A stretch of DNA of 28,397 nt from a virus: positions 1 through 28,397 of the IMG/VR virus record IMGVR_UViG_3300035034_001430; one strand, given 5' to 3'. Shown piece after piece: positions 1 through 28,397 of the stretch. Each line of letters starts with the position of its first letter. The first letter of the stretch is position 1. The notes beneath the pieces are model-generated. The model had not been told where the DNA came from, searched no databases, and was given only the letters and a program-made list of their open reading frames with translations. The position numbers were made by a program, and so were the translations under genes.

Positions 1-77
1 CGAGCGACAGCGCAGCCCATACTAAACTTGTAAAGATCCGAATCTAATATAGATCTTATAATTGGATCAAAATTCAT
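1..77 (-). CDS. pncB: Nicotinate phosphoribosyltransferase, N-terminus (partial)
   Basis: Only the first 25 codons are in the window; the gene runs off the left edge on the minus strand. The reading ILDSDLYKFSMGCAVA matches the conserved opening of the NAPRTase family (LLDTDxYKxxMxQAV). These enzymes make nicotinate mononucleotide from nicotinate and PRPP in NAD salvage, in the cytoplasm. The start is the ATG at 77-75. It overlaps the stop of the upstream remnant reading frame in an ATGA arrangement, and an AAAGG about 10 bases upstream could serve as ribosome binding site. Transcription diverges from the sigma-factor gene. The family call rests on a short but distinctive stretch. NAPRTase is preferred to nicotinamide phosphoribosyltransferase because of the D-x-D-x-Y-K-x-x-M pattern, but the catalytic part is not visible. 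Confidence 0.75.
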   Translation of the reverse strand, partial: MNFDPIIRSILDSDLYKFSMGCAVA

Positions 78-249
78 GTCTGCAACCTTTCACAAAGCCA
101 TCCTTTATGGTGCTTACGCTCACCATTTGCTACTTTAATCATATTGGGGGGCAAAAGCCCGTATTCTCTGCTGCCATTATAGAGGCTTTTGTATCCTCTT
201 GCACTACATATATAAGTTGCAGATTATCGCCGGAGGATTCCCAAATGAA
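74..249 (-). pseudogene. Frameshifted NUMOD1/IENR1-like domain remnant
   Basis: On the minus strand one frame reads LIYVVQEDTKASIMAAENTG and then stops after CPPI. A second frame continues with PNMIKVANGERKHHKGWLC. Joined, they reproduce the S-I-x-A-A-x-x-x-G ... I-x-x-x-x-x-G-x-x-K-x-H-K-G-W pattern of the NUMOD1/IENR1 DNA-binding modules attached to homing nucleases. The switch falls at a run of six C (G run at 146-151 on the + strand), a typical frameshift site. No good start codon exists upstream (TAG at 252-250). The second frame ends in a TGA that overlaps the NAPRTase ATG. Likely a decayed fragment of a homing endonuclease or similar module. A sequencing indel or a programmed frameshift is possible. 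Confidence 0.5.
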
Positions 250-360
250 CTAAAAACTCATCTGGTGCGTTCAACTTATAGAATATTTTTTGACGATAAA
301 CTTGCCTGGTGAAACCATAAGCGATTAAATGTGTTTTGGTTACGTTACACAAGGAGACCA
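250..360. other. Divergent intergenic region upstream of the sigma gene
   Basis: This stretch separates the minus-strand NAPRTase side from the plus-strand sigma-factor gene, so promoters in both directions are expected. The best -35-like hexamer on the + strand is TTGACG at 290-295, but no convincing -10 lies at 16-18 bases from it. A clear ribosome binding site, AAGGAG near 350-355, precedes the sigma gene. I could not define a promoter with confidence. Confidence 0.35.
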
Positions 361-1194
361 ATGACTGAAACAATTTGCCCCGAAGCATTAGAAAAAACCT
401 GGAAGAAATTCAAAAACACAGGCAACGAACAGATAAGGCATCAACTAGCGAATCACTACTTTCCCTATGTTCAAAAGATATCTGTCAAGATGGCGGAGAA
501 ATTAGGATGGAAGGTTCAGCCTGAAGAACTTGCCAGCTTTGGAGTAGATGGACTCTATAAGGCTATTGAGGGATTTGATCTTTCTCAGAACGTTAAATTT
601 GAGTCCTATGCGAGCCGTAGAATAAACGGCAGTATGATTGACGGGCTTAGGAGAGAGGATTCTGTCCCTCGAAGCGTCCGCATAGCAACTGAGCAATTTA
701 AGAGACACAAGGATAGGGTTCAGAGTCATGTGGGTCACAGGTTATCGGATGTAGAATTTGTTTCGATCATTGGTATGGACGAAGAAGATTATCAAAAGAA
801 TTTTCGCAAATACAATGCGTCATCAAAAGCCAGCTTAGATCATCATTCAGATGACGGAAAAGAAGAAGACATTTGTCAAGACTCAAACGATAATCTAATT
901 AACGACTCAAATTCGTCTCCAGATGCTAAGGTAAAGCGTAAGGAATTCTTCTCTAAGATAATGAGCGGCGACTTCACAAAGACAGAGCAAAAAATAATCT
1001 ACCTTCACTACTACGAAGCTTATACAATGGAACGTGTCGCCAAGGCAATTAACAGATCAGAGTCTAGGGTTAGTCAGTTACACAAGAAGATTTTGCCTCG
1101 TCTGAAAGACAAGATTGATCGCAATCCTGAATATTTTTCTGAGGATGTGGCGAGTTATATGGGAGACTGCAACGACAAAGAGTCGATCTTCTAA
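361..1194 (+). CDS. Phage RNA polymerase sigma factor, FliA/sigma-28-like
   Basis: A 277-residue sigma-70-family factor that would direct host RNA polymerase to phage promoters. Region 2 is recognisable around residues 55-105: GLYKAIEGFDLSQNVKFESY, then ASRRINGSMIDGLRRED followed by VPRSVR, the typical region 2/3 boundary of FliA/WhiG-type factors. Region 4 lies at about residues 206-246 (TEQKIIYLHYYEAYTMERVA, then SESRVSQLHKKIL), a helix-turn-helix for -35 recognition. An acidic, asparagine-rich linker separates the two. The ATG at 361 is chosen over the in-frame ATG at 331 because AAGGAG sits just upstream of it. The gene is the first of a + strand run and is followed after 3 bases by a small gene. 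I see no anti-sigma factor nearby. Confidence 0.88.
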   Translation: MTETICPEALEKTWKKFKNTGNEQIRHQLANHYFPYVQKISVKMAEKLGWKVQPEELASFGVDGLYKAIEGFDLSQNVKFESYASRRINGSMIDGLRREDSVPRSVRIATEQFKRHKDRVQSHVGHRLSDVEFVSIIGMDEEDYQKNFRKYNASSKASLDHHSDDGKEEDICQDSNDNLINDSNSSPDAKVKRKEFFSKIMSGDFTKTEQKIIYLHYYEAYTMERVAKAINRSESRVSQLHKKILPRLKDKIDRNPEYFSEDVASYMGDCNDKESIF

Positions 1195-1197
1195 CAA

Positions 1198-1422
1198 ATG
1201 GGAAAACTAATGAAGGCGTACAAAAAAATTAAGTTGTCCGTTGAGGACGCTAAGGTTCTTGCATCGAACTTACAATACGCCATTGATGAATCTGAATGCC
1301 ATCAGGTGCCTATGTCTGCCGTAGATCATGGAAGCGAGATTAGCATCACGGTCAGCCCGTTCTATAAAAGCTGGCTTGACGCCACGATCGAAGATGTCAG
1401 CCCTAAAGCAAGCCGACTGTGA
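1198..1422 (+). CDS. Small hypothetical protein (74 aa)
   Basis: Unrecognised protein of 74 residues. It starts 3 bases after the sigma-factor stop. An in-frame ATG at 1210 with GGGA seven bases upstream is an alternative start that would give MKAYKKIKLSVEDA and may be the true one. The stop codon overlaps the GTG start of the macro-domain gene (GTGA), a sign of translational coupling. The sequence is soluble, with a helix-prone first half (EDAKVLASNLQYAIDE) and a strand-rich second half (SEISITVSPFYKSWL). Probably a small accessory protein of the early region. No function assigned. Confidence 0.7.
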   Translation: MGKLMKAYKKIKLSVEDAKVLASNLQYAIDESECHQVPMSAVDHGSEISITVSPFYKSWLDATIEDVSPKASRL

Positions 1423-1961
1423 CCAAAAAGCCCAAAACCTACAAAGTCCGCATCCGTTGCGAATATGGCGATCCTTCTAAGCCCAATTTCCCTGCGATGG
1501 TTGTACCCGCCAATTTAGATGGTATACTGTCTGCCCCTCTCGCTAAACAGGTGTTGGAGTTTACGGGAGACGACCTCAAGAAAGCCGTTAGAAACGTCGC
1601 TCTGTCTTATCGAGGCAAGATCGATGTAGGCGACAGCTTCATTACTGAAGCCTTCAGGATGCGTCGCAGAGGCGTCAAGAAGATCATTCATGCGGTCATT
1701 ACGGATCACCCAGGAGGATTCGTAACGTTAAACTCAGTAGATAGGTCTATAAGGTCTGCGTTAAGGCAGTCTGTAGAAAACGGGATAGATCAATTAGCGA
1801 TACCAGGATTGGGAATCGCTTCAGGCAGGTTGGACGGGTGTTCAGTTGCCAGTATAATAGCACCGATTGCGCGAGAATATTGTAACCGCGTAGAAATAAA
1901 GATTGTTGACGACAACAAGGAGTTCATAGATGCGATTAAATCGCTTTTAAGGCAGGATTGA
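1419..1961 (+). CDS. Macro-domain (ADP-ribose binding/processing) protein
   Basis: A 180-residue protein with the pattern of the macro domain. VVPANLDG at about residues 28-35 corresponds to the VNAAN loop, followed by LAKQVLEFTG and a G-D-S-F-I-T-E-A stretch equivalent to the family's G-x-A-x-x-T. The later AIPGLGIASGRLDG (near residue 127) corresponds to the fPaigtGxxG phosphate loop. VKKIIHAV matches the central strand. Macro domains bind ADP-ribose and often hydrolyse it from proteins, nucleic acids or metabolites. The start is GTG at 1419, overlapping the previous stop, so it is probably translated by coupling. Activity is not proven by sequence: the first alanine of the usual N-A-A-N is replaced by proline here (P-A-N). 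Its location two genes from a sigma factor and near an NAD-salvage gene suggests a role in host takeover or counter-defence (inference). Confidence 0.78.
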   Translation: MTKKPKTYKVRIRCEYGDPSKPNFPAMVVPANLDGILSAPLAKQVLEFTGDDLKKAVRNVALSYRGKIDVGDSFITEAFRMRRRGVKKIIHAVITDHPGGFVTLNSVDRSIRSALRQSVENGIDQLAIPGLGIASGRLDGCSVASIIAPIAREYCNRVEIKIVDDNKEFIDAIKSLLRQD

Positions 1962-1964
1962 ATT

Positions 1965-2582
1965 ATGAGTGTATTAGCAAAACCAGTTTTAACTTTGAAC
2001 AAGGGGTGGACCCCAATCCGCGTAGACACCGTACTGAAGGTCATAAGTGATATAAGTATTGGTACAAAATGCGCCCTTGATCACGAAAACTACATTGTAT
2101 ATGACTGGGAAGGTTGGCAGGAATTGCCAGTCCTTGAAGGTCATCGCTCTATCAAGATGACGCGAGGTCGCGAGATCCGCGTGCCTGAAGTTGTTGTTTG
2201 CGCTGAATACAACAAGATCCCTAGACAGTCCATCAAGCTGAATAGGAGAAACCTGTACTTGCGCGATAATTACACTTGTCAGTACACTGGCGAGAAATTC
2301 CATCCTGACAATCTTAACCTTGACCACGTTCTACCCTCATCGCGTGGAGGCAAGTCTACTTGGGATAACCTTGTTACTTGTTCGGTAAGGATCAATACGC
2401 TTAAAGGAAACATGACGCCCCAAGAGGCAGGACTGAAGTTGCTTTCGAAGCCTCGCAAGCCTAAGTTCTCTCCTTTGTACAATCATGTCGGGTCTGTTAA
2501 GACGATGCTTCCTAGTTGGGAGAAGTTTTTGCCCAAAACAGGAGGAATCCTTGGGGCTTCTCTAACCGAATCTGGTAAATGA
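1965..2582 (+). CDS. HNH endonuclease
   Basis: 205 residues in the common free-standing HNH nuclease layout. An N-terminal VLTLNKGWTPIRV strand region leads to the nuclease core at about residues 97-150: RRNLYLRDNYTCQYTGEKF, LNLDHVLPSSRGG, TWDNLVTC, then RINTLKGNMTPQEAG. Catalytic H121 (in D-H-V-L-P), N135 and N144 are in place. The family normally has two C-x-x-C zinc knuckles; here only the first cysteine of each remains (CQYT and CSVRI), so zinc is probably not bound in the usual way. It starts three bases after the macro gene and ends in an ATGA overlap with the next gene. It could be a homing-type nuclease or a processing or packaging nuclease. I see no intron around it. Confidence 0.85.
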   Translation: MSVLAKPVLTLNKGWTPIRVDTVLKVISDISIGTKCALDHENYIVYDWEGWQELPVLEGHRSIKMTRGREIRVPEVVVCAEYNKIPRQSIKLNRRNLYLRDNYTCQYTGEKFHPDNLNLDHVLPSSRGGKSTWDNLVTCSVRINTLKGNMTPQEAGLKLLSKPRKPKFSPLYNHVGSVKTMLPSWEKFLPKTGGILGASLTESGK

Positions 2583-3271
2583 TAAGGAAACGAGTCAGGT
2601 CTTACAAAGTAGGATCACGAAGCGACGTTAAAGGCTGGAGCAATTCACTTGTGGATTGCCCAGCCTTTCTTATTGGAAACGCTCCGTCGCTAAAAGATTT
2701 AGATCTGTCGTTATTAAAGGATCATTTTACTATTGGCATCAACAGGGCTTTCTACGAAATTGACCCTACGATACTCATGTGGCAAGATGCGGAGTTGTGG
2801 TGGAACCATCGCGCAGAAATTAGCAGGCTAAAAGCAATTAAATATTGCAAGAACCTGGCTGACCCCAAGAACCGATGCTACCATTTTAAATTGTCAAATG
2901 GAGATTTTAAGTTAACCGATACAGCAAGCATGTTATACGGCAGAGGAGCGACTGGACCTCTCGCTTTTCAACTTGCTCATGTCCTTGGATGCGACCCAAT
3001 TTTTATGCTTGGAATGGACTGCTGCTATAGGGAAGGTAAGACTGATTTCTACGGTGTCAATCCTTCCCATAAGTCGCATACAAGAAAGAACTGCAACAAG
3101 GGTCTAAAGTGGATAAAAATGTGCAACAGCGATAGGGAAATTTACGCCTGCTCGCATAGTAAAATATTTGATTCGCCCATTTCTTTAGAAGATGCAGTTG
3201 ATATGTGCCGGTCTATTCATCCTCAAAATAGGTCTATTTTCCGAAGTAAAATACTCGGTAGCTCCAAATAA
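2579..3271 (+). CDS. MptE/DUF115-like protein
   Basis: 230 residues. AFLIGNAPSLKDLDLSLLKD (residues ~30-49), followed by TIGINRAFY and ILMWQDAELWW, and later GATGPLAFQLAHVLGCDPIF with LGMDCCY, match the layout of DUF115 (6-hydroxymethylpterin diphosphokinase MptE-like) proteins. That group is related to glycosyltransferase or sialyltransferase folds and is frequent in large phages and in flagellin-modification loci. The G-N-x-P-S-L loop and the late G-M-D motif are the most diagnostic parts. The ATG overlaps the HNH stop (ATGA). Substrate unknown: it may modify a glycan, a cell-surface component or a nucleotide derivative. Confidence is moderate for the family and low for the reaction. Confidence 0.5.
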   Translation: MIRKRVRSYKVGSRSDVKGWSNSLVDCPAFLIGNAPSLKDLDLSLLKDHFTIGINRAFYEIDPTILMWQDAELWWNHRAEISRLKAIKYCKNLADPKNRCYHFKLSNGDFKLTDTASMLYGRGATGPLAFQLAHVLGCDPIFMLGMDCCYREGKTDFYGVNPSHKSHTRKNCNKGLKWIKMCNSDREIYACSHSKIFDSPISLEDAVDMCRSIHPQNRSIFRSKILGSSK

Positions 3272-3465: not shown

Positions 3466-6021
3466 ATGTCAGTATCGACGATAGAAAAGTCTGAAAAAAT
3501 TGGACAAGAAAAGAAGGAAATAGAAATTTACACATACGAAGAAGCCTTAGATGCAAGCCTTGAATACTTCGAGGGAGACGACTTAGCAGCTAAGGTTTTT
3601 CTTGATAAATATGCCCTTCGAGACAATGATCAAAACCTTCTTGAGAAAACTCCAACAGACATGCATTGGCGTATCGCTCATGAGTTCGCTCGTATCGAGG
3701 CAAAGAAGTTTAAGAACCCCATGTCCGTGGAAGAGATATTTTCTTATCTAGATAGATACAGGTATATTGTTCCCCAAGGAAGCCCGATGTACGGAATTGG
3801 AAACAACTTCCAAACCATCAGCCTTTCTAACTGCTACGTCCTTGACTCGCCTCTCGACTCATACGGAGGAATCCACAGAACAGACGAGCAACTTTCCCAA
3901 ATATCTAAACGTCGTGGCGGTGTAGGAATTGACATCACTCACCTTAGACCAAACGGGTCAACAACTCATAACGCGGCTAGAACATCAACTGGCATTACAT
4001 CGTTCATGGAACGTTTCTCTAACTCTATTCGTGAAGTAGGACAGTCCGGTCGTCGTGGAGCTTTGATGTTGACAATATCTTGTCACCACCCAGAGGTTAT
4101 TGAGTTTGCTTCGATCAAGAAAGACTTGTCAAAAGTAACTGGCGCAAACATTTCTATTCGCTTCAGTGACGAGTTTTTGAAGGCAGTAGATAATAACGAA
4201 GATTACGAACTTCGTTGGCCAGTTGATGCTAGAGAAAATGGAGAAGAACCATCTATTAGCAAGAAGGTCAACGCGGGAGAAGTATGGGACAAGATTGTCG
4301 AGAGCGCTCACGGAATGGCAGAACCAGGCATTCTTTTCTGGGACAACATTATCAAAGAGTCCCCGTCAGATTGCTACGCTGATTTGGGTTTCAGAACAAT
4401 ATGCACCAACCCTTGCTCAGAAATTCCGCTATCTGCCCTTGACTCTTGTCGTCTCCTGCTTCAGAACCTTCTTAGCTACGTTGAAAACCCTTGGACAGAT
4501 AAGGCTAAGTTCAATTACAAAAAGTTCAATGAGCATGCCCAAATCGCTCAGAGGCTTATGGATAACCTAATTGACCTGGAACTGGAAAAAATAGATGCCA
4601 TTATTGCAAAGGTTCATGCCGACCCAGAGCCAATGGCTGTTAAGCAAGTAGAAATAGACATGTGGGAAGGCGTCAAGGCCGCGTGCCTTAACGGGAGAAG
4701 AACAGGAACCGGAATTACTGCAATCGGCGATGCAATGGCTGCTTGCGGTATTCGGTATGGCAGCAAAGAAAGCATCAAATTCACAAACAAGATTTATAAA
4801 AACCTCAAACTGTCTTGCTATCGCTCGTCTGTTGAAATGGCTAAAGAACTTGGTCCATTCCCAATCTATGATGCTAAGCGAGAAGAAGATTGCCCATTCA
4901 TTCAGCGTATTGCAAAAGAAGATCCTGATCTATACGCGGACATGGTTCGTTATGGCAGGAGAAACATTGCTTTGCTGACAACGGCTCCTGCTGGATCTGT
5001 TTCTATTCAGACGCGAACCACTTCAGGTATCGAGCCTCTATTCATGGCTTTCTACACTCGCAAGAAGAAGATAAATCCAAACGACCAAAACGCCCGATGC
5101 GACGAAGTTGATCAGAACGGAGACCATTGGCAACACTTCTTTGTTGTTCACCCAAGATTCAAAGAATGGATCGTTGCCAGCGGAAGAGATCTTCCAGACT
5201 TTGGAGGAGACCCTGCTGTTGTTGAAAAAGAACTCAATTCTCTTTTCAAAGAGTCTCCTTGGTTTGAGGCGTGCGCCGAAGATCTTGAATGGACTTCTCG
5301 CGTAGATATACAGGCAATCGCGAACAAGCATGTCGATCACGCAATTTCGTCAACGCTAAACCTTCCAGAAGATGTAACAGTTGAAAAGGTTAAAGAAATC
5401 TATGCGAGAGCATGGAAGTCTGGCTGCAAGGGCATAACTGTCTATCGCAACAACTGTCGATCTGGCGTTATGGTCTCTACTGCGGACAAGAACAAGGATG
5501 AATCCAGAATAACGAAGACAGACGCTCCTAAACGACCTAAAGACCTTCCATCTGACGTACACCATACAAGAGTTAAGGGGGAAGAGTATTTTGTCATGGT
5601 CGGAAAACTTGAGAATGAGCCATATGAAGTTTTTGCTGGGAAGAATGGCTTCATGTCAAAAAGCGTAAAGTCTGCGATTGTGTCTAAAATAAAGAGAGGT
5701 CACTATCAGGCTGTTCTTGACAACGGCGAAGTTATTGAAAACATTGCTGAACATATCAGCGATGATCAAGAAGCGATTACAAGAGTCGCATCCTGTAGCT
5801 TGCGTCACGGAGTTGACATATCTTATCTTGTCCATCAGCTTGAGAAGACCAAGGGAGAGATGCAGTCGTTCGCTAAAGCAACTGCTCGTTGCTTGAAGAA
5901 GCATATTGAGGATGGTAAGAAAGTTTCTGGCGAAGAATGTCCGTCTTGCTCCAACGCCAACCTTCAACGCAGAGATGGATGCGTAACTTGTATGGACTGC
6001 GGATGGTCCCGCTGCTCATAA
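3466..6021 (+). CDS. nrdJ: Class II adenosylcobalamin-dependent ribonucleotide reductase
   Basis: 851 residues. The enzyme reduces ribonucleotides to deoxyribonucleotides using adenosylcobalamin, supplying dNTPs for phage DNA synthesis. Visible signatures: first redox cysteine C123 in SNCYVL; the glycine-rich RRGGVGIDITHLRPNGS; the active-site N-x-C-x-E at N315, C317 and E319 (NPCSEIPLS); the second redox cysteine C328; and TTAPAGSVSIQTRTTSGIEP, a class II-type loop. The C-terminus carries CPSC, then GCVTCMDCGWSRC, the cysteine-rich zinc tail of many class II enzymes, which also re-reduces the active site. No glycyl-radical motif (class III) and no adjacent nrdB are present, supporting class II. 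It is preceded by a strong ribosome binding site and followed by a strong terminator, so it may be its own transcription unit. Confidence 0.93.
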   Translation: MSVSTIEKSEKIGQEKKEIEIYTYEEALDASLEYFEGDDLAAKVFLDKYALRDNDQNLLEKTPTDMHWRIAHEFARIEAKKFKNPMSVEEIFSYLDRYRYIVPQGSPMYGIGNNFQTISLSNCYVLDSPLDSYGGIHRTDEQLSQISKRRGGVGIDITHLRPNGSTTHNAARTSTGITSFMERFSNSIREVGQSGRRGALMLTISCHHPEVIEFASIKKDLSKVTGANISIRFSDEFLKAVDNNEDYELRWPVDARENGEEPSISKKVNAGEVWDKIVESAHGMAEPGILFWDNIIKESPSDCYADLGFRTICTNPCSEIPLSALDSCRLLLQNLLSYVENPWTDKAKFNYKKFNEHAQIAQRLMDNLIDLELEKIDAIIAKVHADPEPMAVKQVEIDMWEGVKAACLNGRRTGTGITAIGDAMAACGIRYGSKESIKFTNKIYKNLKLSCYRSSVEMAKELGPFPIYDAKREEDCPFIQRIAKEDPDLYADMVRYGRRNIALLTTAPAGSVSIQTRTTSGIEPLFMAFYTRKKKINPNDQNARCDEVDQNGDHWQHFFVVHPRFKEWIVASGRDLPDFGGDPAVVEKELNSLFKESPWFEACAEDLEWTSRVDIQAIANKHVDHAISSTLNLPEDVTVEKVKEIYARAWKSGCKGITVYRNNCRSGVMVSTADKNKDESRITKTDAPKRPKDLPSDVHHTRVKGEEYFVMVGKLENEPYEVFAGKNGFMSKSVKSAIVSKIKRGHYQAVLDNGEVIENIAEHISDDQEAITRVASCSLRHGVDISYLVHQLEKTKGEMQSFAKATARCLKKHIEDGKKVSGEECPSCSNANLQRRDGCVTCMDCGWSRCS

Positions 6022-8841: not shown

Positions 8842-10761
8842 ATGGGAAGAAAAACAAATAAAGTCAAGCAATTCCAAGACATACTATCAAGTATGTCAGA
8901 GGAATTAACTGGCGAAAAAGTGGAGTCGAAATCCGATCTCCCCGACATTATAACATTCATTGAAGATGACGAATGGCTTGGGCTGGGACCTACTCTTTAT
9001 ACTGCCCAGAGAGTTGTTCTAAAGGCATTTTACAGAGGATCTCGTGGCAATGAAAATCTCGCATTAACGCCAGAAGAAATAGAATGGTGTGAAAAGAATG
9101 GTCTTAATAATGCAGATCCGGATACAGGCAGGGGAGATCTGTTAGCTAAAGTAAAGACAGACGCTACTTTCAGAGAGCTTGTTCTTGTATGGGGTCGCCG
9201 TTCTGGCAAAGACTTTATTGTTTCTCTAATCGCATTGTATGAGGCGATGCAGCTTCTTGAATTACCGGGTGGCGATCCAAGAGAATACTACGGCGTGCAA
9301 AGAGGTGCTGAAATATCTATCCTTACAATCGCTGCGTCTAAGGGTCAAGCACAGATTGCTTTCCGCGAAATTAGAGAGAAAATGAGATTCAGCAAATACT
9401 TCCAAGATAAATATCTTGCGGATGGATTGCAGCAAGGAAGCATTCGTCTTCTAACAAAGCAAGACAAATTAGATAACGAAGAGTTTAAGAAAAAGGGCAT
9501 GCCTGTCAATAATGGTTCAGTTATTATTGAAGTTGGTCACTCTAACCCTGACACGTTGGTTGGTAAGTCTTGCTTCATGCTTATCCTTGACGAAGTCGCA
9601 TCCTACAAAGTTGGAACTGTCGGGTCTGGATCTGGCGACAAAATATATGCTCTTCTTCAACCCACCATTTCTACCTACAACAGGCAAGAGCCTATCTTTG
9701 ATAAAGAAGGCAAACCTGTTATGGATGAAGAAACTGGCGAGCAAGCTGTTAAGACAGTCTATGAAGGAAAGATTGTAAGCATTTCTTCTCCTCGCGGTAA
9801 AGAGGGAAAGCTGTGGGAGCTATGGGAACGACAGGGTGAGGTTAACAACAGGATTGCATGTAGGCTTCCAACATGGGTTGTGAACGAGAGACACAAAGAG
9901 CAGACACTTCGAGAAGAATTCGACGCGATGAGCGAGCAAGAGTTCTATATGGAATTCGGCGCGGAGTTCTCAGGAACTGCTGGTGAAAATATGTTCTCGC
10001 CAGATTTGATTAGAGAGACGTTCAAGACTAATTTGAAAACAAGAGACATTGGAGAGCCTGGAAAGGTTTACTTTGCACACCTCGACCCTGCAACCAACTC
10101 CCACAATTACGCCTTAGTTGTTTGTCATAAAGAGATGTATCTTAATAAGGAAACCAGGAAGTCTGACTTCTTTATTATTGTTGACCATGTCAAGGTTTGG
10201 ACTCCAACGCCTGATCAGTTTATTCCTGTTAATGAAATTGATCAATATATGATTTCTCTTAAGAGAAGATTCCACTTAGGAATGGTAACTTATGATATGT
10301 GGAACTCTGCTGGAAGTATTCTTAAATTGAGAAAACATGGAATTCCGGCGAAGCAGACGGCTTACAATAGGCGTCACAAAATGCAGATATATAGCGAAGT
10401 CGAGGAATTGATGAAAGCCAATAGGCTTATTATTCCGAGATACGGCTTTGATGAGAACACTTCTTTTTCTACCAATCTCTTACACAATGAGATGGTTCAC
10501 TTACAGAGGAAGTTTGATGCCAGCGGATTTAAGGTTTATCCGAAGAAAGAAGGCGACGTAACTAAGACAGACGACGCTATAGACGCTCTGGCCGGCGCGT
10601 GTTGGCTTGCTATATCGAAGGACGTAAACAGGCTACCTTCTGGCAAACTTGTCAACACAGGGGCTGTCCCGCAGGCTCAGAAGCATGACTGGCAAACAAT
10701 GCAGGGCGGAACAATGACGAAAAAAGATTGGGATATTGTCAGTAGGCTTCGTGGTCGATGA
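8842..10761 (+). CDS. terL: Terminase large subunit
   Basis: 639 residues. The motor that packages phage DNA into the prohead and cuts the concatemer. ATPase: Walker A GRRSGKD at residues 118-124 (K123) and Walker B MLILDE at 246-251 (D250, E251), followed by ISSPRGKEGKLWELWE, a coupling-motif region. Nuclease (RNase H fold): FAHLDPATNS with D415, a middle YDMWNS segment, and TKTDDAIDALAGACW with D577, D578 and D581. Both domains are complete and no intein interrupts the gene, although the portal downstream carries them. The ATG follows a long hairpin that covers the ribosome binding site. The last codons form part of a terminator stem. Portal lies ~15 kb downstream, an unusually long separation. 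Confidence 0.93.
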   Translation: MGRKTNKVKQFQDILSSMSEELTGEKVESKSDLPDIITFIEDDEWLGLGPTLYTAQRVVLKAFYRGSRGNENLALTPEEIEWCEKNGLNNADPDTGRGDLLAKVKTDATFRELVLVWGRRSGKDFIVSLIALYEAMQLLELPGGDPREYYGVQRGAEISILTIAASKGQAQIAFREIREKMRFSKYFQDKYLADGLQQGSIRLLTKQDKLDNEEFKKKGMPVNNGSVIIEVGHSNPDTLVGKSCFMLILDEVASYKVGTVGSGSGDKIYALLQPTISTYNRQEPIFDKEGKPVMDEETGEQAVKTVYEGKIVSISSPRGKEGKLWELWERQGEVNNRIACRLPTWVVNERHKEQTLREEFDAMSEQEFYMEFGAEFSGTAGENMFSPDLIRETFKTNLKTRDIGEPGKVYFAHLDPATNSHNYALVVCHKEMYLNKETRKSDFFIIVDHVKVWTPTPDQFIPVNEIDQYMISLKRRFHLGMVTYDMWNSAGSILKLRKHGIPAKQTAYNRRHKMQIYSEVEELMKANRLIIPRYGFDENTSFSTNLLHNEMVHLQRKFDASGFKVYPKKEGDVTKTDDAIDALAGACWLAISKDVNRLPSGKLVNTGAVPQAQKHDWQTMQGGTMTKKDWDIVSRLRGR

Positions 10762-15094: not shown

Positions 15095-16102
15095 ATGTTT
15101 GTACCAGTAGTCAACCAGAAACAAGAACCGCTCATGCCCACGACTTGCAGTCGTGCTGCAAGGTGGATCAAGTCTGGTAAAGCCACTGGTTTCTTCAAGA
15201 AAGGATTATTCTGTGTCAGATTAAATCGAAAACCATCAGATAACAGGAGACAACAGATCGCTGTAGGTATAGACCCAGGCTCAAAACGAGAAGCTTATAC
15301 AGTTAAATCTGAATCTCATACTTACCTCAATGTCTTGTCAGAAACGCCTGGTTGGGTCAAGGATGCTGTAGAAAAGAGAAGAAACGCCAGAAGGGCGAGA
15401 CGACAGAGAAACACGCCTTGTAGAAAGAACAAGCATAACAGATCGAGGAGTCCGTTCCCTCCTTCTACTAAGTCTAGATGGCAGTTAAAACTCAGGATCT
15501 GTTCTTGGTTGAAACAGCTGTTTCCTGTGTCTGCATTTGTAGTAGAAGATATCAAGGCTAGAACTTGGAAAGGAGCAAAGAAATGGAATAAATCGTTCTC
15601 TCCTCTAGAGGTTGGCAAGAAATGGTTTTATCACGAACTTTCTGTTTTAGCTTCTGTTCAGACGAGGCAAGGTTACGAAACGAAAGAGTTGCGAGACGTT
15701 CTTAGTCTTAAAAAGTCTAGTTCTAAGATGTCTGATAAGTTTGAGTGTCATAACGTAGATAGTTGGGTATTAGCCAATAGCGTTGTTGGAGGGCACATAA
15801 AGGTTGATAATAAAAGCATGTTAAAATTAGTTCCTTTTCAATTCCACAGGAGACAGTTGCATGTGTTTCAGCCTGCTTCTGGGGACAAGAGAAGGAAGTA
15901 TGGTGGGACGAGGAGTCTCGGTTTGAAACGAGGCAGTCTAATAATTCATACGAAGTATGGGTTGAGTTATGTTGGTGGGAGCATGAAAGAAAGGGTTAGT
16001 CTTCATTGTTTGGAGACTGGCAAGAGGCTAACGCAGTCAGCAAAGGTGTATGATTGTGTGTTTAAGGCTTATTGTAGTTGGAGAAGTTTTAACATTGTTT
16101 AA
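15095..16102 (+). CDS. isrB: IsrB RNA-guided nickase (IscB family, no HNH)
   Basis: 335 residues. It has an N-terminal PLMP domain (EPLMPTTCSRAARWIKSGKA, P-L-M-P at 12-15) and RuvC-I GIDPGSK with D60. An arginine-rich bridge helix RRNARRARRQRN (95-106) follows. RuvC-II is FVVEDIKA with E151, and RuvC-III is HNVDSW with H219 and D222. Between RuvC-II and RuvC-III there are only ~65 residues and no HNH domain, which marks IsrB rather than IscB (usually ~400-500 aa). All RuvC catalytic residues are present, so it may be an active RNA-guided nickase. The start ATG at 15095 follows GAAGAGAG and ends the leader RNA. The stop lies inside a tandem repeat of TTTAACATTG (16088-16107), which duplicates the last codons. 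TnpB is excluded by the PLMP domain. Confidence 0.88.
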   Translation: MFVPVVNQKQEPLMPTTCSRAARWIKSGKATGFFKKGLFCVRLNRKPSDNRRQQIAVGIDPGSKREAYTVKSESHTYLNVLSETPGWVKDAVEKRRNARRARRQRNTPCRKNKHNRSRSPFPPSTKSRWQLKLRICSWLKQLFPVSAFVVEDIKARTWKGAKKWNKSFSPLEVGKKWFYHELSVLASVQTRQGYETKELRDVLSLKKSSSKMSDKFECHNVDSWVLANSVVGGHIKVDNKSMLKLVPFQFHRRQLHVFQPASGDKRRKYGGTRSLGLKRGSLIIHTKYGLSYVGGSMKERVSLHCLETGKRLTQSAKVYDCVFKAYCSWRSFNIV

Positions 16103-17963: not shown

Positions 17964-18322
17964 TGACTACAGTTCTTGTTAAACATCCTGTCAAAAAGAA
18001 TAAGGCGTCACCGACGCCTATTTTTTGGTATGACATAGAGAATAAAAAGATGCTTAGGTTTGATGCCGACCGAATAGAATTCAAATTCGAATACGACAAA
18101 GAACTTAAGAAGCATGTTAGAAGACCATTCGGAGTTGTCGTAGAAGAAAAAGACGACACTGTTGAAGTAGAAGATTGGTACAAGACATATGAGCGGGGAA
18201 CGTCAGGCTCTTCAATCGAGTCAAAGCAGAATGACGGTATCCGATTTGAAGTAGAAGATGATGAGGTTGACGACTTTATTCGTAGCGCGAATAGAAAAAA
18301 GCTAAAAACGAGGGTGCTGTGA
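17963..18322 (+). CDS. Hypothetical protein (119 aa)
   Basis: 119 residues, unrecognised. It starts with the ATG overlapping the previous stop. It is strand-rich and charged (PIFWYDIENKKMLRFDADRI, RRPFGVVVEEKDDTVEVEDW), with an acidic segment (VEDDEVDDFI) and a basic end (RSANRKKLKTRVL). No cysteine, no membrane segment. The stop overlaps the GTG start of the next gene (GTGA). Likely co-translated with its neighbours. Confidence 0.68.
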   Translation: MTTVLVKHPVKKNKASPTPIFWYDIENKKMLRFDADRIEFKFEYDKELKKHVRRPFGVVVEEKDDTVEVEDWYKTYERGTSGSSIESKQNDGIRFEVEDDEVDDFIRSANRKKLKTRVL

Positions 18323-19242
18323 AACTAATAGCAGAAATAGCAGATACGCCTGATAAGCAATCTATGGGTCTTATGTTCCGTAAGTCTCTTGAGTTTGATG
18401 AGGGAATGTTATTTAAATTCGAAAAGCCAAAGAAATTAGGCTTCTGGAATGTAAATACATTCATACCTCTCGATATCGCATTCATTGATAAAGACAATGT
18501 AATCACAGAGATATCTAGAATAAACGCAACAAGCAATGTCTCTGTAACAAGACCTCAAGTTGTAACAAGCAGCAAAGATTGTGTTCTTGCTATTGAAACC
18601 AATGCAGGATTCTTTAGCGATCACAAAATAAAAGAGGGTCAGGTCATTCGTATCGATGAAGGACCAGGCGGTAAAGCGATCATCTCTTTTTCTGATAATG
18701 TCAAAACCGCTCAACAATTAATTGATAAAAAAGATGAAATGAGTCCCGCAAAATTCACTAATAGAAGCCTATTAGACAATATGAACAATTATGAGAATCC
18801 AGGCAACTTGCCAGTTATTAGCCTTGATGAAATTAGCTCTATATTAGAAGATTCATACGATGAAGATACGGACGAATACCAACCTACAGAGCCAGAAGTA
18901 AGTCCTGAGACGCAAGATATGGCTCCTACTGATGAGCCTCAAGAACCATTCCCCGTACCCGAAGAAGAAGAATATCCAAACTTCGGAAACGCTGCTGATG
19001 CTCTCATGTATGCTCAGGATCAAAACGAAGTTTTGCGCATTTGGTATCAAACCAAGAGAGGCAGAGATATAGAAAGATCAGTTGCTCCTCATGGAATATT
19101 CTTTGCTGAGACTACAGGGAATACGATTGCAGTTACCTATGACTTCGATGTTGGAGACATTAGAGCGTTCATTGTGGACAATATTTTGCATTTTAATTTC
19201 GAAGGTAAAAAGTTCGAGCCGATGTTCTTGGTTAAGCAATAA
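18319..19242 (+). CDS. DUF192 domain protein with C-terminal WYL-like domain
   Basis: 307 residues from a GTG overlapping the previous stop. Residues 1-~115 match DUF192: TPDKQSMGLMFRKSLEFDEG, MLFKFEKPKKLGFWNVNTFI, PLDIAFIDKDNVITEI, then LAIETNAGFF and KEGQVIRI, the usual G-L-M-R ... W-x-x-N-T-x-I-P-L-D pattern. Then come a KTAQQ motif and an acidic, proline-rich linker. The last ~75 residues (EVLRIWYQTKRGRDIERSVA, TYDFDVGDIRAFIVDNIL) resemble a WYL domain, which binds ligands or nucleic acid in defence regulators. Neither domain's biochemical role in phages is known to me. The combination is unusual. Confidence 0.72.
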   Translation: MKLIAEIADTPDKQSMGLMFRKSLEFDEGMLFKFEKPKKLGFWNVNTFIPLDIAFIDKDNVITEISRINATSNVSVTRPQVVTSSKDCVLAIETNAGFFSDHKIKEGQVIRIDEGPGGKAIISFSDNVKTAQQLIDKKDEMSPAKFTNRSLLDNMNNYENPGNLPVISLDEISSILEDSYDEDTDEYQPTEPEVSPETQDMAPTDEPQEPFPVPEEEEYPNFGNAADALMYAQDQNEVLRIWYQTKRGRDIERSVAPHGIFFAETTGNTIAVTYDFDVGDIRAFIVDNILHFNFEGKKFEPMFLVKQ

Positions 19243-26021: not shown

Positions 26022-28397
26022 ATGTCAATTTTAAAATTTCAGATGCCTGAGCCTGGAGACAGCAGGCTCAATAAAAGAATTGCATCTACTGGGGGTCCGG
26101 GGCGTAACTCAAAACCTACGTTATATGCAAGGGGAAATACAGCAAGCGTACCCATCACGAGGAATGCTCAATTCGCAGGTTCAGGCGCGTCTGTAACAAT
26201 GACGCAACCCATGTTCTTCTCGCCACTGCATACGCCACAAAACTGGCAGATTGCATCTAAGCGTAGAGAAATATATCAATGGGCAAGGTTCTATTACGAA
26301 AACGAACCCAAAGTAGCAGCAGGTATCGACTTCTATTGCTTCGATCCGTCCACTCCTGTTCTGATGGCGGACGGTAGTCAAAAATCTATATCTTCTATTA
26401 AAATTGGAGACTTGGTAAGAAGCCACGATGGTTCTTCCAATCAGGTTGCTAAGGTTAATGTTAGAGATGCTTATGACGAGGATATGTTAAAGATAAAAAT
26501 ATCGGGGGTATCTTGTGGCTATGATCTTTCGGTCACACCTGGACATGAGATGCTGGTTATTAGGGACGGCAAAGAGAAATTTATTCAAGCTAAAGATCTA
26601 AATAATAATGATTATTTGTTGACTCCTTGCAAGTATGAAGAAAACGACATTGCAGGAAAAATAGACAAAAGACATGAGGATTTTATGTGGCTTTTGGGAC
26701 TGTACTCAGCAGACGGCTGCCAGATCCCATATAAGCATATAAGTAAAAAACTCAAGGCTTCTGACTATGGTAAGGGAATATATTTAACTCTTTCTTATAA
26801 CGAAAAGAGTGTAGCAGAAAAAGCTGTATCTATTGCTAAGTCAATATATGGTTGCAGTTATACAATTAGGCAAATTAAGAAAAAGGGAGTGACCGTCGTG
26901 TCTCTTTATGGGAGATCCATTGCAGACGACATGTCAGGGCTTTGTCCTGGCTCGGGACGAAAAGGGAGTAAAAGATTTTCTCCCCACATAATGAAGCAGG
27001 GCTATCCTTATCTAATTAGTTTACTTAACGGGTTTTATGCTGGAGATGGGTGTTTTACTAAAAATAGCGGTTTCCAAGGAGTCGGCGTTTCTTCCCTAAT
27101 GATGGAGCAAGTTGCCAATATGCTTGACAGGTGTGGAATCCGGTACTCATTTTATTGTCAAAACAAGGTTAAAGGCAACAGGCAACCTATCTATAATGTA
27201 AGAATATCAAGATCAGATGCTGAAAAATACTTTGCAGATAACCATAAGGTTTATAAAACGCATACAAATGAAGATTTCGCAAGAAACTTTTCAATATTGC
27301 AAGATGGAAAGTATATTAAGAGGAAAATTAGATCTATACAAAAGTTCACCTACAGCGGTCTCTTGTACGACTTAAGTGTTGACAATGTACATTCTTATGT
27401 AGTAAACAGAATATCTTGCTCGAATTCTAACTTCCCCATGAACGGGTTTAATCTAGAATGTCCAAATACAAAGATACTCGAATTCTATGAAGATGTCGTA
27501 GAAAACCTGGAACTTAACAAGTGGCTTAACTACATTAGCCATGAATACTTTCTATTAGGCGAAGTGTTCCCATTCTTGGAAATTCACTGCCCAGAATGCG
27601 AAATGTCAGGAACGGATAGCGATGGAGAGGTTTGCAACCACCCAGGAGGAACGTTTACATCTATTCGAGTCATGAACCCAGACTATATTGAAGTACAAGA
27701 TAACGTTCTTGCTAAAGAGCCTGTTATTGCGATGACGCCTGATGAAGAATTAAAGATGATCATTCAAAGGAAAGAGCCTCGTCAAATATATGACAGCCTT
27801 CCTGAATTCTTAATTGAACTTGTTTCTTCCGGGCAACCTATACCTCTTTCAAGTAGAAGTATTAGCCATATCAAGTTTAACTCATCGTCGTATGCAACAT
27901 ACGGAACGTCTTTGCTTAGAAGATTATTTACGGTTCTTGCTTATAAAACAAAGCTAATGACAGCTAACTGGATCGTCGCCGAAAGACTTATACTTCCAGT
28001 GCGTGTTGTTAAGATTGGCGAGAAAGATCGTCCGGCTTCTGAAGAAGATATTCAAGATGTTGTTAACCAACTTGCAGCCGTCGCTAACGACCCAAACTTA
28101 ACCATTGTTACACACCACGCTTTCGATTATGAATGGTATGGCAGCTGCTATGACGACCAAACAGAAGTCCTTACTTCAAATGGCTGGTCTCTTTTCAAAG
28201 ATACTACTGTTGATAATATCTTTGCTACTTACAACAATGAAAACGGGCAACTACAATACCAACAAGCAGAAGAATATCATGAATATGACTATGACTCTAT
28301 GCTGTACGGTCCCATGTATAACTTTAAAGCCCGTTCTGTAGACATTAATGTTACTCCAAATCACCGCATGCTCATCGAGAGAAAAGGCGAGAATATA
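26022..28397 (+). CDS. Portal protein precursor with two inteins (3' end outside window)
   Basis: Open from ATG 26022 (GGGAGA upstream) to the window edge, 792 codons. The extein parts are residues 1-105 (ending YYENEPKVAAGIDFY), then SNFPMNGFNLECPNTKILEF through THHAFDYEWYGS. They fit the portal ring protein of T4-like and other large phages: the N-P/FPMNGF core, HEYFLLGEVFPFLEIH, FTSIRVMNPDYIEV, and SHIKFNSSSYATYGTSLLRR. The portal is the DNA channel at one capsid vertex and the terminase docking site. An insertion CPECEMSGTDSDGEVCNH looks like a small zinc knuckle. The first intein (residues 106-468) is complete; the second begins at residue 709 and runs off the window. The mature extein seen is ~345 residues, so about a third of a usual portal lies beyond. 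Confidence 0.85.
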   Translation, partial: MSILKFQMPEPGDSRLNKRIASTGGPGRNSKPTLYARGNTASVPITRNAQFAGSGASVTMTQPMFFSPLHTPQNWQIASKRREIYQWARFYYENEPKVAAGIDFYCFDPSTPVLMADGSQKSISSIKIGDLVRSHDGSSNQVAKVNVRDAYDEDMLKIKISGVSCGYDLSVTPGHEMLVIRDGKEKFIQAKDLNNNDYLLTPCKYEENDIAGKIDKRHEDFMWLLGLYSADGCQIPYKHISKKLKASDYGKGIYLTLSYNEKSVAEKAVSIAKSIYGCSYTIRQIKKKGVTVVSLYGRSIADDMSGLCPGSGRKGSKRFSPHIMKQGYPYLISLLNGFYAGDGCFTKNSGFQGVGVSSLMMEQVANMLDRCGIRYSFYCQNKVKGNRQPIYNVRISRSDAEKYFADNHKVYKTHTNEDFARNFSILQDGKYIKRKIRSIQKFTYSGLLYDLSVDNVHSYVVNRISCSNSNFPMNGFNLECPNTKILEFYEDVVENLELNKWLNYISHEYFLLGEVFPFLEIHCPECEMSGTDSDGEVCNHPGGTFTSIRVMNPDYIEVQDNVLAKEPVIAMTPDEELKMIIQRKEPRQIYDSLPEFLIELVSSGQPIPLSSRSISHIKFNSSSYATYGTSLLRRLFTVLAYKTKLMTANWIVAERLILPVRVVKIGEKDRPASEEDIQDVVNQLAAVANDPNLTIVTHHAFDYEWYGSCYDDQTEVLTSNGWSLFKDTTVDNIFATYNNENGQLQYQQAEEYHEYDYDSMLYGPMYNFKARSVDINVTPNHRMLIERKGENI
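26337..27425 (+). mobile_element. Intein 1 in portal, with LAGLIDADG endonuclease
   Basis: 363 codons. Starts at C106 (CFDPSTPVLMADG, block A; KIGDLV follows), with block B at LSVTPGHEML. LAGLIDADG motifs are LLGLYSADG (residues 224-232) and LLNGFYAGDG (334-343), whose acidic residues D231 and D342 would be catalytic. The C-terminal splicing blocks are LYDLSVDNVHSYVV and RISCSN, with N ending at 27425 and serine as +1. Removing it joins GIDFY to SNFPMNGF, a natural portal sequence. The usual penultimate histidine is a serine here. Confidence 0.88.
28146..28397 (+). mobile_element. Intein 2 in portal, N-terminal part
   Basis: Begins at C709 (28146) with CYDDQTEVLTSNGWSLF (block A) and has block B NVTPNHRML. 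The reading frame from WYGS changes from portal-like to intein-like at this cysteine. Only 84 residues are in the window; presence of an endonuclease and the C-terminal splice site cannot be judged. Confidence 0.8.

Follow-up and report, generated by a model that had tools for sequence, protein, structure and literature searches.

A predicted nicotinate-route NAD operon divergent from a sigma factor-macrodomain operon in a family of phages

The left edge of the contig

The virus record IMGVR_UViG_3300035034_001430 (IMG/VR) begins in the midst of two gene sets that run away from each other, one starting with a nicotinate phosphoribosyltransferase gene (NAPRTase; PncB) and the other with a sigma factor gene that is followed shortly by a macro-domain gene. 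The window analyzed here is the complete record, 28,397 bases, so that whatever lies left of position 1 cannot be read in this phage. The N-terminal 25 codons of the NAPRTase gene occupy positions 3..77 of the minus strand, the contig end cutting off the rest, and the map of open reading frames (ORFs) leaves a divergent intergenic region at 78..360 between this piece and the rightward genes. A scan of the window for promoter-like sites gave six, none of them within 78..360, against a shuffle mean of 6.7 and so without excess; a terminator scan of the window likewise gave no excess over shuffles, and the window had no Rfam match at gathering scores and no tRNA.

On the plus strand, the first gene encodes a sigma-70-type factor resembling FliA and WhiG (ORF 331..1194; the likelier start is ATG 361, preceded by AAGGAG at 351-356). 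Its Pfam regions 2 and 4 score over cut-off, bearing out a sigma factor reported here by an earlier reading of the same DNA, the original prediction; the closest NCBIfam models, WhiG and FliA, score under their own cut-offs. It is followed by a 74-amino-acid ORF (1198..1422) with no assigned function and no match in Pfam or PHROGs, whose stop overlaps the GTG start of the macro-domain gene (1419..1961; 180 amino acids, TTHA0132-like). Pfam identifies the next two genes as an HNH endonuclease (1965..2582) and a DUF115/MptE-like protein (2579..3271; 34.9 bits against a cut-off of 34.6), the latter overlapping the HNH stop. Because the ORFs from sigma to DUF115 overlap or lie no more than 3 bases apart, they are operon-like. 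The large subunit of ribonucleotide reductase (RNR; 3466..6021, plus strand, by Pfam) forms the downstream part of a block that is conserved in relatives.

At 25 amino acids, the NAPRTase piece is too short for family models and matched no family in Pfam or PHROGs. With E values allowed up to 10 it matched four PDB sequences, three of them NAPRTases (2im5 ranking first, E = 0.0076) and the fourth a designed repeat protein. Eleven phage records were matched, five within an annotated NAPRTase gene, five lacking annotation, and one lacking a feature at the match. Two of the five annotated matches are Acinetobacter records, and the one inspected resembles a bacterial chromosome; because pncB sits among bacterial housekeeping genes in Acinetobacter phage MD-2021a, that record was excluded. 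In a phmmer comparison, the piece is linked with complete NAPRTases from related viral loci (designated here by L numbers), and those of L008, L010, and L018 pass the nicotinate-type NCBIfam model TIGR01514 with 422-462 bits against a cut-off of 269.55. The evidence inside the window being thin, the assignment as NAPRTase leans on these relatives.

The product of 1419..1961 is a true macrodomain. It matches Pfam PF01661 with 40.6 bits (cut-off 22; E = 2.9e-10), and its AlphaFold2 model, made from a 16-row alignment, has a mean pLDDT of 93.7. The top Foldseek match is TTHA0132 (2dx6; E = 3.7e-13), with which VIA-align aligns 158 residues at Z 25.2 and a root mean square deviation of 1.7; lower VIA-align matches include YmdB, MacroD-type, PARP14, and DarG macrodomains, interspersed with designed hydrolases of that fold. 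The macro fold, whose absence would have counted against the original prediction, is present in the predicted structure. That prediction also had an NAPRTase gene and a macro gene on opposite strands within 2 kb. Both are real, as matches to PDB and phage sequences together with relatives indicate for the one and PF01661 and the fold for the other, and they do lie on the minus and plus strands, respectively; the NAPRTase is present only as its 25-residue piece.

The ADP-ribose-binding loop of the macro protein, placed by alignment at residues 27-50 (1497..1568, plus strand), is degenerate. Several relatives have NAANGIGVMGAGVAGAI, and TTHA0132, the top match in both sequence and fold, has a GAGVAG loop; the window copy reads VPANLDGILSAPLA, with SAPLAK in place of the glycine-rich stretch of the GxGVAG type, and this loss makes hydrolysis doubtful. 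Reading the phage and TTHA0132 loops by eye, we take the position of the catalytic Asp of MacroD enzymes to be occupied by Ala, so that hydrolase activity is not established even for canonical members; D40A and N30A entries occur among the structural matches of the model. The macro protein might remove ADP-ribose from phage DNA or protein, as DarG does, or clear by-products of RNA repair, an idea that we consider highly improbable. DarG macrodomains align with the model at Z 19.7 to 21.0, and the PADLOC DarG model matches the window protein weakly (15.8 bits, E = 0.0018) and that of L120 more strongly (1.8e-14), but the NCBIfam DarG model misses the window protein at E 0.001 and gives L010 49.1 against a cut-off of 250, the window loop is degenerate, and the neighbors scanned with Pfam yielded no ADP-ribosyltransferase match.

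Conservation of the block in viral relatives

Scanning viral contigs with one protein at a time, whether the window's macro, sigma, or terminase, returned no relatives, alignments being required; a two-row macro alignment (A1) recovered a single viral contig. An exact probe of 30 bases (11..40) matched no viral contig but the window itself, in a search set that may lack records close to the window. An alignment of three phage NAPRTases gave 129 relatives in viral contigs, and the best 80 of the 129 loci were used, lying on 79 contigs once L021, a second locus on the contig of L019, was dropped. Pfam macro matches at E ≤0.001 number 15 in 14 of these 79 NAPRTase-bearing records (8/39 plus 6/40), and exceed the cut-off in 12. 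Six records (L008, L010, L013, L018, L020, and L023) have a macro match on the strand opposite NAPRTase and 1.09-1.37 kb from it, comparable to the 1.43 kb on opposite strands in the window; the next nearest match, in L071, shares the strand of NAPRTase at a distance of 3.1 kb. If 15 matches were placed uniformly in the 79 records, 0.65 would be expected within 2 kb of NAPRTase, compared with the six observed; the computed tail of 1.6e-5 presumes independent records, which these are not, some being duplicates (a 21-kb stretch is identical in L079, L080, and L082). Three of four named phage records also have macro matches, which in LR756500 and Atu_ph07 lie tens to hundreds of kilobases from NAPRTase; the third is phage G, for which no NAPRTase search was made.

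Loci were also selected by sigma factor. A sigma alignment made from the window plus seven loci that the NAPRTase search had supplied led to 15 viral loci, seven of them in records already known, in which the order is NAPRTase leftward and sigma, macro, HNH, DUF115, and RNR rightward. HNH and DUF115 hold their conserved place in all 15 loci, a macro gene stands behind sigma in 14, and a divergent NAPRTase lies within 1.1 kb in 13. The eight loci not found earlier via NAPRTase include six with NAPRTase and eight with macro, although the L119 macro scores under the Pfam cut-off at 16.6 bits. No NAPRTase was found in the L119 and L123 records (173,351 and 169,505 bases). As the largest record among the relatives spans 547,943 bases (L113), some of them are very large phages. 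The gene identities, the macro fold, and the conservation of the arrangement in relatives come directly from these observations.

The slot between genes is sometimes filled differently. In L015 (8054-9028) and L117, an unrelated 324-amino-acid ORF, with no Pfam match over cut-off, stands between sigma and HNH, and in L111 an ORF that by eye resembles a GIY-YIG homing nuclease (8950-9714) separates NAPRTase from sigma. The L113 record has a second, canonical macro domain far from the block (517638-517982; 135.7 bits), its block macro scoring 38.3 bits. Genome contigs scanned with the sigma alignment and one peptide pattern yielded five distant sigma relatives (26-33% identity), none with the block, and so pointed to no host.

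NAD genes on the left side

The original prediction had pointed to the sequence left of position 1 as a place to seek further NAD genes; these are found in relatives, as NadE, PncA-like, and Nudix genes, the corresponding part of the window's own phage being unreadable. NAD synthetase (NadE) occurs in 10 of the 15 sigma-selected records, each of them NAPRTase-bearing, on the strand of NAPRTase and on its far side. The enzyme is long and nitrilase-joined in L008 and short in L018, and that of L118 scores over the TIGR00552 cut-off. A PncA-like gene follows NAPRTase in L018 and L023, NAPRTase, PncA-like, and NadE being consecutive in L018, and in L120 a Nudix gene sits between NAPRTase and NadE.

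Gene counts around NAPRTase in the 79 viral records, made with local models in flanks of up to 10 kb and often shorter, gave NadE in 42, PncA-like genes in 38, and ADP-ribosylglycohydrolase genes in 7. The PncA-like count comes from a two-sequence model; the six of the 38 loci that were checked (L007, L018, L023, L025, L060, and L081) pass the Pfam isochorismatase cut-off, a family broader than nicotinamidases. Five of the seven ADP-ribosylglycohydrolase loci (L060, L062, L068, L070, and L073) have that gene next to the NAPRTase start or overlapping it. NadE comes behind in each of the five, and a PncA-like gene stands ahead in four; the genes of L060 were checked with Pfam. A Nudix-domain protein and a member of the ADP-ribosylglycohydrolase family are encoded near NAPRTase in LR756500.

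A proposed explanation and its rivals

The explanation we prefer, which taken as a whole we hold at about an even chance, is that NAD would be replenished by the leftward genes while the rightward genes supply a binder of an ADP-ribose derivative. The left edge would be a regulatory region common to two divergent phage operons, and the gene order of relatives suggests that a nicotinate-route (Preiss-Handler) NAD operon probably begins with NAPRTase and diverges from the sigma-macro-HNH-DUF115 operon. The leftward operon would make NAD by this deamidated route: PncA, from phage or host, would convert nicotinamide to nicotinate, NAPRTase would join nicotinate and phosphoribosyl pyrophosphate (PRPP) into nicotinate mononucleotide, host NadD or an undetected phage enzyme would turn this into nicotinate adenine dinucleotide, and NadE would complete NAD. 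From the rightward operon of sigma factor, small ORF, macro, HNH, and DUF115 genes would come a macro protein whose likeliest ligand is a free ADP-ribose derivative; since the window copy has lost its glycine-rich loop, binding or an altered ligand is likelier for it than ordinary hydrolysis. Jointly, the two operons could hold NAD high and ADP-ribose products low and so help against NAD-depleting defenses. A counter-defense role of these genes is plausible, and we infer the remainder of the left operon in the window's phage, the enzyme activities, the ligand, and the defense benefit.

A rival explanation, possible though on the unlikely side, is that these are two unrelated neighbors, a metabolic NAPRTase carried by part of the family beside an old macro-containing core block, with no joint function. 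Loci selected by DUF115 provide most of its support and, together with several features of the NAD genes and of the macro loop, weigh against the joint function that we prefer. Of 51 such loci, 28 have the block (L137-L164) and 26 of these have the sigma gene, L153 and L157 being left out as cut off before sigma. Two DUF115 relatives of 40-41% identity, L165 and L166, lack the block. Macro is present in 22 of the 26 loci (Pfam agrees for all 26) and NAPRTase in 16. Macro accompanies NAPRTase in 15 of those 16 loci, the single one without it being L117/L145, and is also present in 7 of the 10 loci that lack NAPRTase. This association falls short of significance (Fisher p = 0.26; p = 0.53 once similar loci are merged, namely L146-L148 at >99.9% identity, L163/L164 at 78%, and L144/L151 at 84%). 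More than 5 kb is visible upstream of sigma in each of the 10 NAPRTase-lacking loci, so the absence is not due to a contig end, and the 11 NAPRTase-lacking records, which are possibly fragments, have no NAPRTase or NadE elsewhere in them. In a FastTree phylogeny of sigma, HNH, and DUF115 (29 rows), eight NAPRTase-lacking loci, six with macro plus the macro-lacking L163/L164, group together with support of 1.000; L119, L139, and L150, also NAPRTase-lacking, fall elsewhere. Given that macro is kept without NAPRTase and that these loci group in the tree, macro seems to predate NAPRTase in this phage family or to be independent of it, which is the chief finding against pairing the two. The sigma and DUF115 models were themselves built from the window and the seven NAPRTase-found loci, a bias toward NAPRTase carriers by which 13 of 15 overstates the NAPRTase frequency; the DUF115 set has 16 of 26.

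The NAD genes are also unevenly represented. NadE was not found in 3 of the 13 NAPRTase-bearing sigma-selected records, and by Pfam a PncA-like gene is present in 3 of the 15 sigma-selected records, in one of them distant from the block. The PncA-like protein of L118 scores 29.6 against 174 for the nicotinamidase model, and a PncA-like match in L109 has no Pfam support. An adenylyltransferase (PF01467) appears in 1 of the 15 partial records, tens of kilobases from the block; the PF01467 model also misses the NadM-like protein of L002, so that an enzyme for the middle NAD step may have escaped notice.

The window copy, finally, has lost the canonical ADP-ribose loop. Among 25 aligned macro copies, 13 loops are canonical, 1 is intermediate (L138), and 11 deviate. 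The canonical ones comprise all six copies of the NAPRTase-lacking tree group and, among NAPRTase-bearing loci, L120, L141, L142, L146-L148, and L154; the deviating ones are the window, L137, L140, L149, and L158-L162, together with NAPRTase-lacking L139 and L119. A separate divergent operon, the macro genes in NAPRTase-lacking loci, and the lost loop leave the single counter-defense pair of NAPRTase and macro unsupported in the form that the original prediction gave it; as a whole, that prediction finds partial support.

The neighbors would have to be unrelated, however, in a block whose adjacency persists in 17 carriers at a mean sigma identity of 45%, and the ADP-ribosylglycohydrolase genes that abut NAPRTase in five other viral loci indicate that the theme recurs. 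A wider proposal, which we regard as fairly unlikely, is that the deamidated PncA-PncB-NadE route is one more phage pathway for rebuilding NAD, common in large phages, and has repeatedly gained ADP-ribose-handling partners, which would be an ADP-ribosylglycohydrolase immediately before NAPRTase in one group and, in the window's group, a fast-diverging macro protein of the divergent sigma operon turned binder of a defense nucleotide.

Among the 17 NAPRTase carriers, the window excluded, mean pairwise identity is lowest for macro, at 0.39 (16 of the carriers), and comes to 0.42 for HNH, 0.45 for sigma, 0.47 for DUF115, and 0.48 for NAPRTase, the other four genes compared. Phage proteins that sequester His-ADPR exist. 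The macro protein could act on ADP-ribose immune signals made by TIR proteins, as a sponge or a hydrolase, while the NAD operon refills the pool, an explanation we find improbable. Its low conservation would fit, and there is a precedent in PMC13232231 in RyDEP, a phage enzyme set within a NARP1 operon that cuts cyclic ADP-ribose (cADPR) signals to ADPR, which NARP1 enzymes take to NAD; against this, the nearest solved relative, TTHA0132, appeared in the results with no named ligand, and the divergence of macro could be decay.

Other genes in the window

Three further plus-strand genes deserve mention. Inside the structural gene region, 15095-16102 encodes an RRXRR protein of 335 amino acids (PF14239, 108.1 bits), which by eye we take to be a compact RuvC-type relative of IscB, IsrB, and TnpB. 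The single phage protein at 18319-19242 fuses a DUF192 domain to a WYL domain. At 26022-28397 lies an intein-bearing gene with Intein_splicing and LAGLIDADG matches over cut-off; its host protein is a weak portal match below cut-off, and by eye the start of a second intein runs off the right end.

Discussion

NADase effectors and phage NAD synthesis have been linked before. Phage salvage by NadV with NadM or NadR is what we take the name NARP2 to denote. According to PMC9503650, phages synthesize NAD with NadV, NadM, and NadR, macro domains occur in 56% of jumbo phages, and NADAR domains occur beside NadM and NadV. As at the present locus, a phage phosphoribosyltransferase starts the re-synthesis of NAD there, in a proposed answer to NADase effectors. 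The relatives described here differ in using the nicotinate (PncB) type with NadE and sometimes a PncA-like gene, neither NadE nor PncA being named in section 3.6 of that paper, on NadV salvage. NARP1 (Adps and Namat; PMC12774641 and PMC13232231) likewise rebuilds NAD by phage enzymes and can share its operon with RyDEP, whereas the route proposed here begins at nicotinate and PRPP. In Xanthomonas phage X1, the listed genes include pncB, nadM, nadD, and nadE, which are tied to NAD depletion by defenses; the excerpts of PMC13384950 at hand mention no macro gene or sigma block.

Other phages share some elements. Sinorhizobium phage Phosso and Agrobacterium phage Atu_ph07 have an annotated NAPRTase without an adjacent sigma-macro block. 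Phosso has NadE, MutT-like, and nicotinamide-nucleotide adenylyltransferase genes within 5 kb of NAPRTase and no macro match, and in Atu_ph07 the macro match lies about 270 kb from NAPRTase. Bacillus phage G gp122, in the only phage that the window macro matched by tblastn at a limit of E 0.01 (28% identity, compared with 41.8% to the L110 copy), has no annotated sigma gene within 8 kb and is surrounded by genes for thymidylate synthase and dihydrofolate reductase and by unnamed genes. Our searches of the open-access literature found nothing joining phage, nicotinate phosphoribosyltransferase, NAD synthetase, and macro domain, and nothing on the Preiss-Handler route as a phage counter-defense. 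The earlier work on NadV, phage X1, and NARP1 makes phage rebuilding of NAD against defenses an idea known in kind; on the searches made, a NadE-bearing nicotinate-route operon beside a divergent sigma-macro operon would be a variant of it.

Some bacterial defenses are known to consume NAD, and a phage that restores it can overcome them. An operon for the nicotinate route, with PncB and NadE and often a gene for a PncA-like protein, a Nudix protein, or an ADP-ribose hydrolase, would add a countermeasure of this sort in many viral records, and the sigma-macro operon divergent from it supplies macro homologues, grading from canonical to degenerate, with which to ask whether a macrodomain has changed from hydrolase into signal binder.

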